A DNA stretch of 64,000 bases from an uncultured Tateyamaria sp. (GTDB lineage: Bacteria; Pseudomonadota; Alphaproteobacteria; Rhodobacterales; Rhodobacteraceae). Each line of letters begins with the position of its first letter. Position 1 is the first letter of the stretch. The notes beneath the pieces are model-generated. The model was not told the DNA's origin and did not search any database. It was given only the letters and a program-made list of their open reading frames with translations. Made by a program: the position numbers and the translations under genes. The stretch lies in the NCBI RefSeq assembly GCF_947487805.1, contig NZ_CANKXW010000002.1, positions 558,001-622,000 on the forward strand. Reading direction: 5' to 3'. Below, piece by piece: positions 16,508 through 51,719 of this stretch.

Positions 16508-16639
16508 GTCAGTTTTCTCCGCTGGGGTGCCGCATTAACTGGCAGAATTCGCGCCAGAGGCAAGAGCAACCCGCGCCCCTGCGGCACAACGCCATTTCGT
16601 TGTGCGACTTGCCTGCAAATTCAACCCAGAGCCTATGCA

Positions 16640-16689
16640 AATGCTGCATAGCAGCATTGTTTTGGTGTCTATTGTGCAGACGCAGCATT
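16640..16689. promoter_or_regulatory. Two 19-bp operator-like palindromes upstream of the DUF1127/sRNA operon
   Basis: Site 1 (16640-16658) is a perfect palindrome, AATGCTGC-ATA-GCAGCATT. Site 2 (16671-16689), ATTGTGCA-GAC-GCAGCATT, keeps the right half and a related left half. Their centres are 31 bp apart, three helical turns. Site 2 recurs almost unchanged before pyruvate carboxylase (31732-31750). A TTGTGC/TATGTT pair overlapping site 2 could be the promoter. The regulator is not identified. Confidence 0.6.
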
Positions 16690-16732
16690 GGCTTATGTTT
16701 GTATCAACGAAATTGAGCAAGAGGCGAGAAAA

Positions 16733-16963
16733 ATGGCCTACTACAATGACATAGCACAGCGCAGCGATCTGGTCGAACGTATCCTCGGCACGGTTGCACG
16801 CTTTCTGGAAACCGCAGCAGAGCGTCACGCACAGCGCCGCGTCTACCGCACCACGCTGGACGAGCTGAACACGCTGACCAACCGCGAACTGGCGGATCTG
16901 GGCATGCACCGCTCCGAACTCAAGCGCATCGCCTGGGAATCGGCCTACGGCAATGCGGCCTGA
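16733..16963 (+). CDS. DUF1127 protein, CcaF1-like
   Basis: 76 residues, Arg-rich. The C-terminal DUF1127 motif is clear: TTLDELNTLTNRELADLGMHRSELKRIAWESAYG. GAGGCGAGA lies a few bases before this ATG, which is preferred over an earlier in-frame ATG at 16688. In Rhodobacter sphaeroides the homologous small gene (RSP_6037, CcaF1) is co-transcribed with the CcsR sRNAs that follow it and its product binds RNA and affects their processing. The same arrangement here (sRNA hairpins begin about 10 bases downstream) supports that role. Confidence 0.85.
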   Translation: MAYYNDIAQRSDLVERILGTVARFLETAAERHAQRRVYRTTLDELNTLTNRELADLGMHRSELKRIAWESAYGNAA

Positions 16964-16969
16964 CGTAAC

Positions 16970-17282
16970 ACGAGATCAGATGTCCCTCTCCTCCTCCCTG
17001 GGGCATCTGTAAATTGGCGGCGGCGCCTTCCTCCTCCCTGGCGTCGCCGCACCTTTCTTTCGCATCTGATCAGATGCACGCCATACATCGCTCTTCCGGT
17101 CCTCCTCCTCCCTGACCGGCGCGATGTTGCAAGAGCGGCGACATTCACCTCCTCCCGAATGTCGCCGCATCCTATCCGCACCACGTGGTGCACCAGAATT
17201 GTCGCGCGCGGTCCTCCTCCTCCCTGACCGCCGGACAAATCGAAGGCGGCGATCCCTCCTCCCTGGGGTCGCCGCTTTTTTT
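16970..17282 (+). ncRNA. CcsR ('cuckoo') sRNA array with six CCTCCTCCC stem-loops
   Basis: Six hairpins each expose a C/TCCTCCC loop. HP1 stem 16977-16982/17004-17009; HP2 17017-17027/17040-17050 (11 bp); HP3 17096-17100/17115-17119 with outer arms 17090-17095/17130-17135; HP4 17135-17145/17158-17168 (perfect 11 bp); HP5 17208-17213/17226-17231; HP6 17246-17256/17265-17275 followed by seven T. Two extra palindromes lie between units (17062-17077, 17178-17191). CcsR RNAs of R. sphaeroides carry this anti-Shine-Dalgarno-like loop and act in stress and C1/pyruvate metabolism; that organism has four, this locus six. Confidence 0.9.
17246..17282 (+). terminator. Rho-independent terminator formed by the last CcsR hairpin
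   Basis: An 11-bp GC-rich stem (one T·G wobble) with loop TCCTCCCT is followed directly by seven T residues. The terminator doubles as the sixth CCTCCCC-type sRNA hairpin, so a stable 3' end is built into the array. Confidence 0.92.
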
Positions 17283-17316
17283 ATTTCCGGATTTTCGAAA
17301 GTTTTTGGCGCCGCGA

Positions 17317-17343
17317 CGTCACAACCGGCAGTGCCAGTCCGTC
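17317..17343 (+). promoter_or_regulatory. ECF41-type promoter before the AhpD-like gene
   Basis: CGTCACA (17317-17323), a 16-base spacer and CGTC (17340-17343) match the published ECF41 consensus TGTCACA-N16-CGTC at all but the first base. It lies about 137 bases before the AhpD-like gene, whose second cistron encodes an ECF41 sigma factor, so the unit is probably autoregulated. Confidence 0.75.
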
Positions 17344-17479
17344 ACATGTTCCGACAGTACAAAGGAACAGGCCCCTTGGCACATCCCATTTCCCCCGTGG
17401 CCACGCGGTCACCACCCGCATCAGGCATCTGGACAAACCTCATCCCCGCGACATCAATACCACTCAAGGAGCGAAAACC

Positions 17480-18028
17480 ATGATCCGCGCATTACTGCAT
17501 TCCGGCACCCGGCGTTTTGCCAGACAGTTCAATTATGACGCCACCTATCAACACGACATGATCGACGCCGACGCGGGTGCCGGTGCGCGGCTGGCCCTGT
17601 TCCAGATGGTCAGCAACTACGCGGGCCCGGCCAGCGCCCACCATGTCCGCATGGGCGCCCTGGTCGGCTCCGCGGTCGAGGGCGATTGCGGGCCGTGTGC
17701 CCAGTTGACCGTCGATATGGCGCTCGCCCATGGCGCGCGCGCAGCGGATATTCAGGCCTGCCTGAACGGGGCGCCCGAGGCCGCAGGCGATTTCGGCCTG
17801 GGCTACCGCTTTGCCTGGGCCGCGATCCGCAACCACACGGACCTGGACACGCTGCGTGACCGGATCGACGCCGCGCACGGACCGCGTGCCGTGATCGCCG
17901 CCTCCTTTGCCGCGGCCTTCACCCGCACCTATCCCGTGCTGAAACGCGGGCTTGGCCATGGTCAGCTGTGCCAACGGCTTAGCGTGGCAGGCACGTCCAT
18001 CACGCTCACGTATCCAGCCCCCGCATGA
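17480..18028 (+). CDS. AhpD/carboxymuconolactone decarboxylase-like protein linked to ECF41
   Basis: 182 residues. The core segment MGALVGSAVEGDCGPCAQLTVDMALAHG has the CMD/AhpD redox motif with C70-G-P-C73 preceded by acidic residue E67. AhpD-like proteins use such a CxxC in peroxide or disulfide chemistry. Carboxymuconolactone decarboxylases are one of the three enzyme types (COE: CMD, oxidoreductase, epimerase) found next to ECF41 sigma factors and transcribed by them. The gene overlaps the sigma factor by ATGA. An AAGGAGC ribosome site precedes the ATG. Confidence 0.8.
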   Translation: MIRALLHSGTRRFARQFNYDATYQHDMIDADAGAGARLALFQMVSNYAGPASAHHVRMGALVGSAVEGDCGPCAQLTVDMALAHGARAADIQACLNGAPEAAGDFGLGYRFAWAAIRNHTDLDTLRDRIDAAHGPRAVIAASFAAAFTRTYPVLKRGLGHGQLCQRLSVAGTSITLTYPAPA

Positions 18029-18930
18029 CATGGGTTGACCAGTTCGAAGCACAGAGGCCGATGCTCACGGCCCTGTGTTACCGCATGCTGGGCGAACGGG
18101 CCGCCGCCGAGGACGCGGTGCAGGACACCTGGCTCAAATGGTCCCGCGCCGACCATGGCGCGATCCGGACACCGGCGGCGTGGCTGCGCACGGCCGCGAC
18201 CCGTGTGGCCATCGACGCGCTGCGGCGGGCGCGGGCGCGGCGCGAAACATATGTGGGCCCGTGGTTGCCCGAACCTCTGGTCGCCGACGATACCACCGCC
18301 GAAACCGGCTTTGAACTGGCCCAGGATTGCGAACTCGCACTGCTGTGGATCATGGACACGTTTCCCGCCAGCGAACGCGCGGCCTTTATCCTGCGCGAGG
18401 CATTTGATGCCGGCTATGCCGAAATCGCCGAAACACTGGGCAAATCCGAAGCCGCCTGCCGCCAATTGGTCAGCCGCGCGCACCGGCGCGTCGCGCAAGC
18501 GCCCCCAGATCTCAGCCAACCCTCCGATCTGCGCGCCGCCCGGATCAGCGGCTTTCTCGCCGCCATAGCCAGCAACGACCTGGAGGCCGCAAAACGCCTT
18601 CTGGCGCCCGATGCCGTGTCGATCTCCGATGGCGGGCGCAAGGCACGCGCGGCACGCCGTCCCCTCACAGGCCCCGACGATATCGTCGCCGTCTCTCATG
18701 CCATCACGCTGAAACATGCCGCATCACGCACAATCGTCCCATTGACCGCCAATGGTCAGCCCGCCCTGCTCTTCTTCGACCGCGACACACCAGACACCCT
18801 GATGACGGCAGTGTTGAATGACCGGGGCGAAATTTGCTGGATCTACACCATGCGCAACCCCGACAAATTGCCCCTACGGGACGGCGGGCGGGGCGATGTG
18901 CGCAGCACGAGCGTCGCGCGGCGTCCCTAG
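18025..18930 (+). CDS. ECF41-family sigma factor with C-terminal SnoaL-like domain
   Basis: 301 residues. Sigma-2 (about 8-70: LTALCYRMLGERAAAEDAVQDTWLKW) and sigma-4 (about 100-155: PASERAAFILREAFDAGYAEIAETLG) are joined by the ECF41-specific WLPEPL motif (80-85). A SnoaL/NTF2-like C-terminal extension (165-285) carries DGGR at 202-205 and NPDKL at 278-282, the two motifs that define the group. In ECF41 the fused C-terminal domain modulates activity in place of a separate anti-sigma factor. The 3' end overlaps the convergent uvrD end by 4 bases. Confidence 0.93.
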   Translation: MTWVDQFEAQRPMLTALCYRMLGERAAAEDAVQDTWLKWSRADHGAIRTPAAWLRTAATRVAIDALRRARARRETYVGPWLPEPLVADDTTAETGFELAQDCELALLWIMDTFPASERAAFILREAFDAGYAEIAETLGKSEAACRQLVSRAHRRVAQAPPDLSQPSDLRAARISGFLAAIASNDLEAAKRLLAPDAVSISDGGRKARAARRPLTGPDDIVAVSHAITLKHAASRTIVPLTANGQPALLFFDRDTPDTLMTAVLNDRGEICWIYTMRNPDKLPLRDGGRGDVRSTSVARRP

Positions 18931-51632: not shown

Positions 51633-51719
51633 CGCAAAGCGGGGTCTTTTGTGCCGGGGTGAAGCACTCTATACTCCCGCCTGAGCAAAAGAGACCCAAC
51701 ACGGGCACAGAGCAGACAT

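Follow-up and report, generated by a model that had tools for sequence, protein, structure and literature searches.

A DUF1127-CcsR operon of a Tateyamaria with a putative PhaR operator in its promoter

A DUF1127 gene followed by hairpins with C-rich loops

The window, by which we mean the whole 64,000-nucleotide (64-kb) stretch of DNA analyzed, belongs to a 4.14-Mb genome and carries a DUF1127-CcsR (cuckoo, CIN1-type) operon of a Tateyamaria (Table 1). The DUF1127 protein has its closest named relatives in Tateyamaria (seven loci, 89-68% identity), and its Pfam score lies above the cut-off, as expected from an earlier, sequence-only reading that had placed the array behind such a gene. The stop codon lies 13 nt 5' of the first hairpin, on the same strand, and the array of six stem-loops that follows extends from 16977 to 17286, almost the same span as the 16970-17282 of the sequence-only reading. 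Published work is cited throughout from excerpts of the papers.

Table 1. Features of the operon, in window coordinates (HP, hairpin)
Feature	Position	Strand	Evidence
Promoter box 1, CTGCATAGCAGCATTG, PhaR-operator-like	16644..16659	+	Conservation over nine loci; match to the R. sphaeroides PhaR site CTGCNNNGCAG
Promoter box 2, ATTGTGCAGACGCAGCA (TGC-N4-GCAGCA), overlapping the -35	16671..16687	+	Conservation; double-box score
Predicted promoter: -35 TTGTGC (16672-16677), 16-bp spacer, -10 TATGTT (16694-16699)	16672..16699	+	Sequence and conservation
DUF1127 gene, 76 aa, CcaF1-like	16733..16963	+	PF06568, 40.3 bits (cut-off 23.3); 51% identity to the 71-aa G046 homologue
Unit 1 hairpin A (HP1)	16977..17009	+	Fold, hairpin finder; unit RF02791 46.2 bits
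Unit 1 hairpin B (HP2), GCGGCG-type stem	17016..17051	+	Fold, hairpin finder
Spacer hairpin 1, GCATCTGATCAGATGC	17062..17077	+	Fold; pair changes among 16 chosen genus spacers
Unit 2 hairpin A (HP3)	17085..17127	+	Fold, hairpin finder; unit RF02791 36.9 bits
Unit 2 hairpin B (HP4)	17135..17168	+	Fold, hairpin finder
Spacer hairpin 2, GCACCACGTGGTGC	17178..17191	+	Fold; alone not beyond shuffles at 5% (0.235)
Unit 3 hairpin A (HP5)	17199..17238	+	Fold, hairpin finder; unit RF02791 36.6 bits
Unit 3 hairpin B (HP6), U-run, terminator	17245..17286	+	Sequence, fold, hairpin finder

The sequence-only reading had described six stem-loops in about 300 bp with exposed anti-Shine-Dalgarno loops, the last of them a terminator, and motif counts, a hairpin finder and RNA folding bore out this description. 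When both strands of the window were searched, the 9-mer CCTCCTCCC was found six times, always on the plus strand (starting at 16990, 17030, 17104, 17148, 17216 and 17255; span 16990-17263), against a mean of 0.5 and a maximum of 3 in 100 shuffles of the window. The hairpin finder, run over the window with the core CCTCCTCC, returned the same six on the plus strand and none on the minus strand; the shorter core CTCCTCC added one, on the minus strand at 51715. The RNA fold predicted for 16965-17285 has an energy of -150.1 kcal/mol compared with -96.0 ± 5 for shuffles (z = -10.8; 0 of 100 as stable) and contains the six hairpins and both small palindromic hairpins. The C-rich segment lies in the loop of all six, with the first two C of the 9-mer paired in HP6, and HP6 runs into the U-run TTTTTTTATTT, which makes it a terminator by form.

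Rfam searches of the window at gathering thresholds yielded one tRNA and nothing else. At a permissive threshold, the CcsR1 model (RF02791) matched at 16972-17055, 17083-17173 and 17198-17280, in each case below its gathering score of 65.3 bits, a score that does not define the operon class because it is reached by 7 of 150 family genomes and because units 2-7 of the Cereibacter sphaeroides array score 39-47 bits. The assignment to the CcsR/cuckoo family made in the sequence-only reading was thus upheld by the covariance search, at scores below the gathering threshold. Two matches to the NfeR1/αr14 family (RF02344) were likewise below gathering (45.4 and 41.2 bits; threshold, 58.8). No other convincing CcsR locus was found in the same genome, where further RF02791 matches had E values of ≥0.013, a laxity at which the search also gives matches in 12 of 14 control genomes. 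When plasmids were searched for distant matches to 16600-17500, only three turned up, all of them partial.

Two known systems resemble the operon. The ccaF1-CcsR1-4 locus of R. (Cereibacter) sphaeroides shares with it the DUF1127 gene, the two-hairpin units, the CCUCCUCCC loops and, by prediction for the window, an RpoH-like promoter. It differs in its stems and spacers and in the number of units, which is seven in the genome copy that we studied and three in the window. The rhizobial cuckoo RNAs, described with two to four hairpins (PMC4504443), likewise have repeated hairpins with CCUCCUCCC anti-Shine-Dalgarno loops; one of them, NfeR1, differs in being a three-hairpin RNA under the control of LsrB and NtrC (PMC10746234). 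Downstream of the array, the interval 17480-18930 holds a 182-aa ORF with no Pfam match, followed by an ECF-type sigma factor gene whose product has a SnoaL-like C-terminal match below the cut-off.

Units, spacers and array size in relatives

The sequence-only reading took the array for an expansion of the four-copy R. sphaeroides version to six copies, a comparison that sets six hairpins against four two-hairpin RNAs. RS0680a, an RNA of R. sphaeroides, contains two stem loops (PMC3927594), and a CcsR unit has two hairpins; therefore, four such RNAs amount to eight hairpins and the six in the window amount to three units. Consistent with this count, the RF02791 model spans 83 positions with two hairpins, and each of the three window matches covers two hairpins, in register with the units. 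Neighboring hairpins in the window are separated by 7, 45, 15, 39 and 10 nt, and across 52 arrays of at least three hairpins the gaps were of two kinds, short ones of 0-19 nt (174) and long ones of 25-54 nt (83; gaps with an undetected C-rich motif were dropped beforehand). In the arrays compared, a GCGGCG-type stem is frequent in hairpin B.

Copy numbers in relatives also spoke against an expansion. RF02791 matched 131 of 150 family genomes at E ≤ 0.01, with a median of 3 matches per positive genome (at least 4 in 51, 3 in 31 and fewer in 49), although the matches in a genome need not share one array. Three matches was also the commonest count in the genus, being found in 11 of 20 genomes, with 2 in five, 4 in three and none in one. 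Within single arrays of named relatives, we counted four hairpins at six loci (L046, L047, L048, L050, L051 and L053, the last labelled Shimia) and six in T. omphalii (L049) and T. pelophila (L052); at L047, L048, L049, L052 and L053, one hairpin each was missed by the finder and read by eye. Larger arrays are found elsewhere, with 14 hairpins in Tropicimonas (L064) and 15 in Antarcticimicrobium (L061), 900 nt having been examined for each, and 14 hairpins, or seven units, in G046, which we took for C. sphaeroides. The array is therefore ordinary in size for a known family, and array sizes are better compared by units than by hairpins.

The identification of G046 draws on its locus L039, which has matches at 99.8% to plasmids of C. 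sphaeroides, including 2.4.1; another of its loci, L044, gave no plasmid match. Its DUF1127 protein has the 71 aa reported for that of R. sphaeroides (PMC10253847). The G046 array (L009, 1511-2252 of the reverse complement; G046:C4:691706-692456) has almost identical units 3-7, and its seven units, compared with the CcsR1-4 of the literature excerpts, may reflect strain, assembly or naming. Four other genomes of its genus had 4, 5, 5 and 8 RF02791 matches, the 8 spread over two contigs.

The same evidence bears on the idea that the locus is an expanded array of six separately targeted sRNAs, which we regard as very improbable. The bases flanking the motif do differ among the six hairpins, and it had been proposed that loop variants could confer target selectivity; for the seed this is unsupported because the 9-mer is the same in all six, and the flanking pyrimidines alone differ. 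HP4, singled out earlier as the most divergent loop, has indeed neither the additional pyrimidines on the 5' side nor the T on the 3' side; its 9-mer, however, is as intact as those of the other five. Six separate targets would also sit poorly with the two-hairpin units, with a match number equal to the family median and with the larger arrays elsewhere.

The two extra palindromes noted between units are present in the window fold, and such palindromes recur between units in other loci. Of 79 distinct inter-unit spacers, 77 folded at or above the shuffle median, 32 beat about 95% of their shuffles, and the median z was -1.5; the hairpin begins about 8-12 nt after hairpin B in most of the folds listed, often behind an A/U-rich stretch. 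Spacer 1 of the window beat its shuffles at the 5% level (0.045). In 16 spacers picked from Tateyamaria-type loci, 97.7% of cells pair and six cells have changed on both sides, a count that illustrates and does not test the hairpin because these spacers were chosen for showing it. The first spacers of L049 and L101 (-0.9 kcal/mol, no convincing hairpin) and the spacer of L108 (-4.2 kcal/mol, a different hairpin) were left out of this count. The spacer hairpins may be processing sites, as the sequence-only reading had suggested; RNase E cutting has been reported in R. sphaeroides (PMC8625941, PMC7866481).

A conserved double box in the promoter and its relation to PhaR

Upstream of the DUF1127 gene, the predicted promoter is accompanied by two palindromic boxes. 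Box 1 contains the PhaR-type operator CTGCNNNGCAG at 16644-16654, and the strict palindrome TGCTGCATAGCAGCA, overlapping box 1, occupies 16642-16656; box 2, in which the half-sites are separated by N4 instead of N3 and the left half is degenerate, overlaps the -35 and the spacer towards the -10. In an alignment of nine loci (the window and L046-L053), the only variable positions of the boxes are two A/G columns (box 1) and the three or four innermost bases of box 2. The double box also precedes arrays in other genera, C. sphaeroides included, with the consensus CTGCATRGCAGCATTG, 11-12 bp, ATTGTGCANNNGCAGCA, and the ccaF1-CcsR promoter of C. sphaeroides itself has the same double box (box 1, 7/8; box 2, 8/8). 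The site at 16644-16687 scored 33/33, and the next best site on either strand of the window scored 25. At six loci (L017, L021, L028, L038, L162 and L170, the last with box 2 alone intact), the distance from box 2 to the start of the hairpins is 48-103 nt, too short to accommodate a DUF1127 gene; the boxes therefore go with the RNA array. These six arrays may be primary transcripts.

The TTG of the predicted -35 and the TAT of the predicted -10 fit the RpoHI/HII elements (-35 TTG, -12 TAT) given for another DUF1127 gene (PMC10673084). In R. sphaeroides, the CcsR RNAs are cotranscribed with ccaF1 from an RpoHI/HII promoter and processed by RNase E, with effects on C1 metabolism and pyruvate dehydrogenase (PMC10253847, PMC8625941). 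The locus could therefore be an ordinary DUF1127-CcsR operon served by RpoH-type sigma factors only, with the palindromes belonging to another regulator or to an extended promoter. Three matches to rpoH models in the genome, one of them above the cut-off and the weaker two perhaps other sigma factors, are compatible with such an operon. A sigma factor, however, needs no fixed bases in the spacer, where the GCAGCA of box 2 is found, or upstream of the -35, where box 1 is found. This argument, together with the resemblance to PhaR boxes and the phylogenetic pattern described below, leads us to consider control by sigma factors only unlikely.

The reported PhaR site of R. sphaeroides, where PhaR represses phasin genes, is CTGCNNNGCAG (PMC12542648), and TGC-rich PhaR boxes have been described in P. 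denitrificans and R. sphaeroides (PMC10888616). We compared the array promoter with the pha genes, identifying PhaR by TIGR01848 (147.6 bits) and PHB_acc domains and the phasin by Phasin_2. The motif CTGCN3GCAG is also present at phaP and phaR of the window's own genome. Of the best-scoring 30 of 145 PhaR loci, 21 have it in the 1500 nt preceding phaR and 11 have it as pairs 26-30 bp apart; the total is 37 in 96.8 kb of these loci versus 4 in the 64-kb window. The boxes at the array are like the CTGC-N3-GCAG boxes of phaP operators in Rhodobacteraceae, but they stand about 31 bp apart, and box 2, with its N4, runs into the -35. The strict palindrome TGCTGCNNNGCAGCA has five sites genome-wide, one in the array promoter, one in the phaC-phaP interval and three at genes without an evident link to PHB. 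The TGCTGCNNNGCAGCA palindrome at L124 (G000:C7:63919-63933), with TGCAGCATTG about 32 bp upstream, precedes a large ORF with GGNDN-type repeats (read by eye) and is a possible further PhaR target.

If PhaR acts on these boxes, their presence should follow that of PhaR, which was detected in 145 of the 150 and in 385 of the 395 genomes of the family searched. Taking the best array per genome, we found the double box, with 11-12 bp between boxes, before the array in 65 of 69 evaluated genomes with PhaR but in 1 of 5 without detected PhaR (Fisher p = 3e-4, a value that ignores phylogeny, the four box-less genomes representing three genera). The genomes with PhaR were a nonrandom sample, the 72 better-scoring of 128 with an RF02791 match; three of the 72 were not evaluable by script, with the boxes visible in one (G127) and not found in two (G072 and G107). 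The full double box was lacking in G007, G030, G085 and G020, and the second, two-hairpin arrays of G087 (L024, L190) and G081 (L192, L193) also lack it. The consensus had been drawn from part of the evaluated genomes; 24 genomes were added once it had been settled, and the double box was present in all 23 of them that could be evaluated.

PhaR is missing from ten genomes, and in nine of them class I PhaC is missing as well. Four of them (G083, G123, G270 and G357, without PhaR and PhaC) gave no RF02791 match at E ≤ 0.05, and a match in another, G341, also without both, proved on reading of the sequence to be false and not an array. The genomes with an array but neither PhaR nor PhaC are G003 and G375 (of one genus), G134 and G297, and in all four the boxes are eroded: the best double-box scores, 22-24/33, are at background level and do not reach the 25 scored by the best chance site in the window. 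In G134, the scorer's best site lies elsewhere and the homologous site scores 22 (box 1, 5/8; box 2, 3/8). The remaining genome, G106 (92% complete, 590 contigs), has intact boxes with no PhaR detected; because it also keeps phaC, a phasin-like ORF and paired PhaR-type boxes between them, its phaR may be missing from the assembly only.

From these observations we infer that PhaR binds the array promoter at a putative operator, and the double site probably ties the CcsR RNAs to this carbon-storage sensor. A precedent for a PhaR-controlled sRNA is already known, as is this type of array: the promoter of S. meliloti MmgR has PhaR palindromes to which PhaR binding was demonstrated by EMSA (PMC12542648). 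MmgR is another sRNA, and the excerpts on it mention neither a DUF1127 gene nor a CCUCCUCCC array. We recognised no report of a link between PhaR and DUF1127-CcsR in the literature excerpts searched, which mention no CcsR in the case of PMC7204398 and no PhaR in the case of PMC11354728; the primary papers on CcsR, CcaF1 and R. sphaeroides PhaR lay outside this search, and a prior report is possible.

Candidate targets and a possible link to carbon storage

The motif GGAGGAGG, in full and 3-11 nt before an ATG, was listed 20 times in the genome compared with 6 times for the reversed pattern, the 20 including the array's own antisense, two pairs that are one site each, and several that are not gene starts. 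One site precedes pdhA (pyruvate dehydrogenase E1 alpha; TIGR03182, 504.7 bits; L083, G000:C11:61496-61515, minus strand), where GGAGGAGGAG lies 7 nt before the ATG and forms a 10-nt perfect complement of the HP1, HP3 and HP5 loops (CUCCUCCUCC). Since a GGAGGAGG Shine-Dalgarno sequence is near-consensus and common, this complementarity is weak evidence and serves as a lead. For R. sphaeroides, an action of CcsR RNAs on the pyruvate dehydrogenase complex has been reported (PMC8307010, PMC8625941). We regard pdhA as the best local candidate target, which the CcsR loops may repress. A full GGAGGAGG also precedes the start of a gene for a GlcD-like glycolate-oxidase FAD oxidase (L065, G000:C1:31040-31056, minus strand), whose product scores below the NCBIfam glcD cut-offs.

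The C-rich loops might instead serve mainly as a sponge for a protein, such as DUF1127/CcaF1 or another RNA-binding protein, and not as mRNA antisense. Repeated identical loops would suit a sponge, and in R. sphaeroides CcaF1 is an RNA-binding protein that influences the levels of CcsR (PMC10253847). The six arrays with no room for a DUF1127 gene argue against this idea, as does S. meliloti NfeR1, which has three CCUCCUCCC loops and silences a reporter, an effect abolished when the loops are mutated (PMC10746234), and we hold the sponge to be quite improbable.

We thus favor, as the probable reading, an anti-Shine-Dalgarno RNA operon under stress and PHB control, combining a DUF1127-CcsR transcript, gating by an RpoH-type sigma factor and PhaR, processing into units, and pdhA as a candidate target. 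One stress promoter would produce a CcaF1-like small RNA-binding protein and a 3' UTR with three two-hairpin sRNA units, which is probably cut into two-hairpin RNAs whose CCUCCUCCC loops would pair with GGAGG-type ribosome-binding sites and block translation. Transcription would probably be gated twice, by the RpoH-type sigma factor and by PhaR, which would occupy the two CTGC-N3/4-GCAG boxes, one upstream of the -35 and one over it, and presumably act as a repressor. In Cupriavidus, PhaR is sequestered on PHB granules (PMC12542648); such sequestration would release the operon.

A wider proposal extends this to most Rhodobacteraceae, in which CcsR would stand under the PHB-sensing repressor PhaR and stress sigma factors, so that PHB titrates PhaR, CcsR rises, pdhA is lowered and less acetyl-CoA is available for PHB, closing a feedback loop. 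We give this loop slightly less than an even chance, because ccaF1 is very low in wild-type stationary phase in R. sphaeroides (PMC11354728). CcsR1 is lower then too (PMC8307010), and PHB production is named among the stationary-phase adaptation genes (PMC11354728). A simple release by PHB does not fit these data unless RpoH activity or RNase E turnover dominates; an operon under sigma factors only would need no PHB control to account for the low levels. Should the feedback loop be real, it may explain the action of CcsR on C1 and pyruvate metabolism.

The result worth following is the conserved double operator, whose boxes are shared between genera of the family, the model Cereibacter sphaeroides included. 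If true, the PhaR input would bring an unexpected second signal, the state of the carbon store, to a studied family of stress sRNAs.
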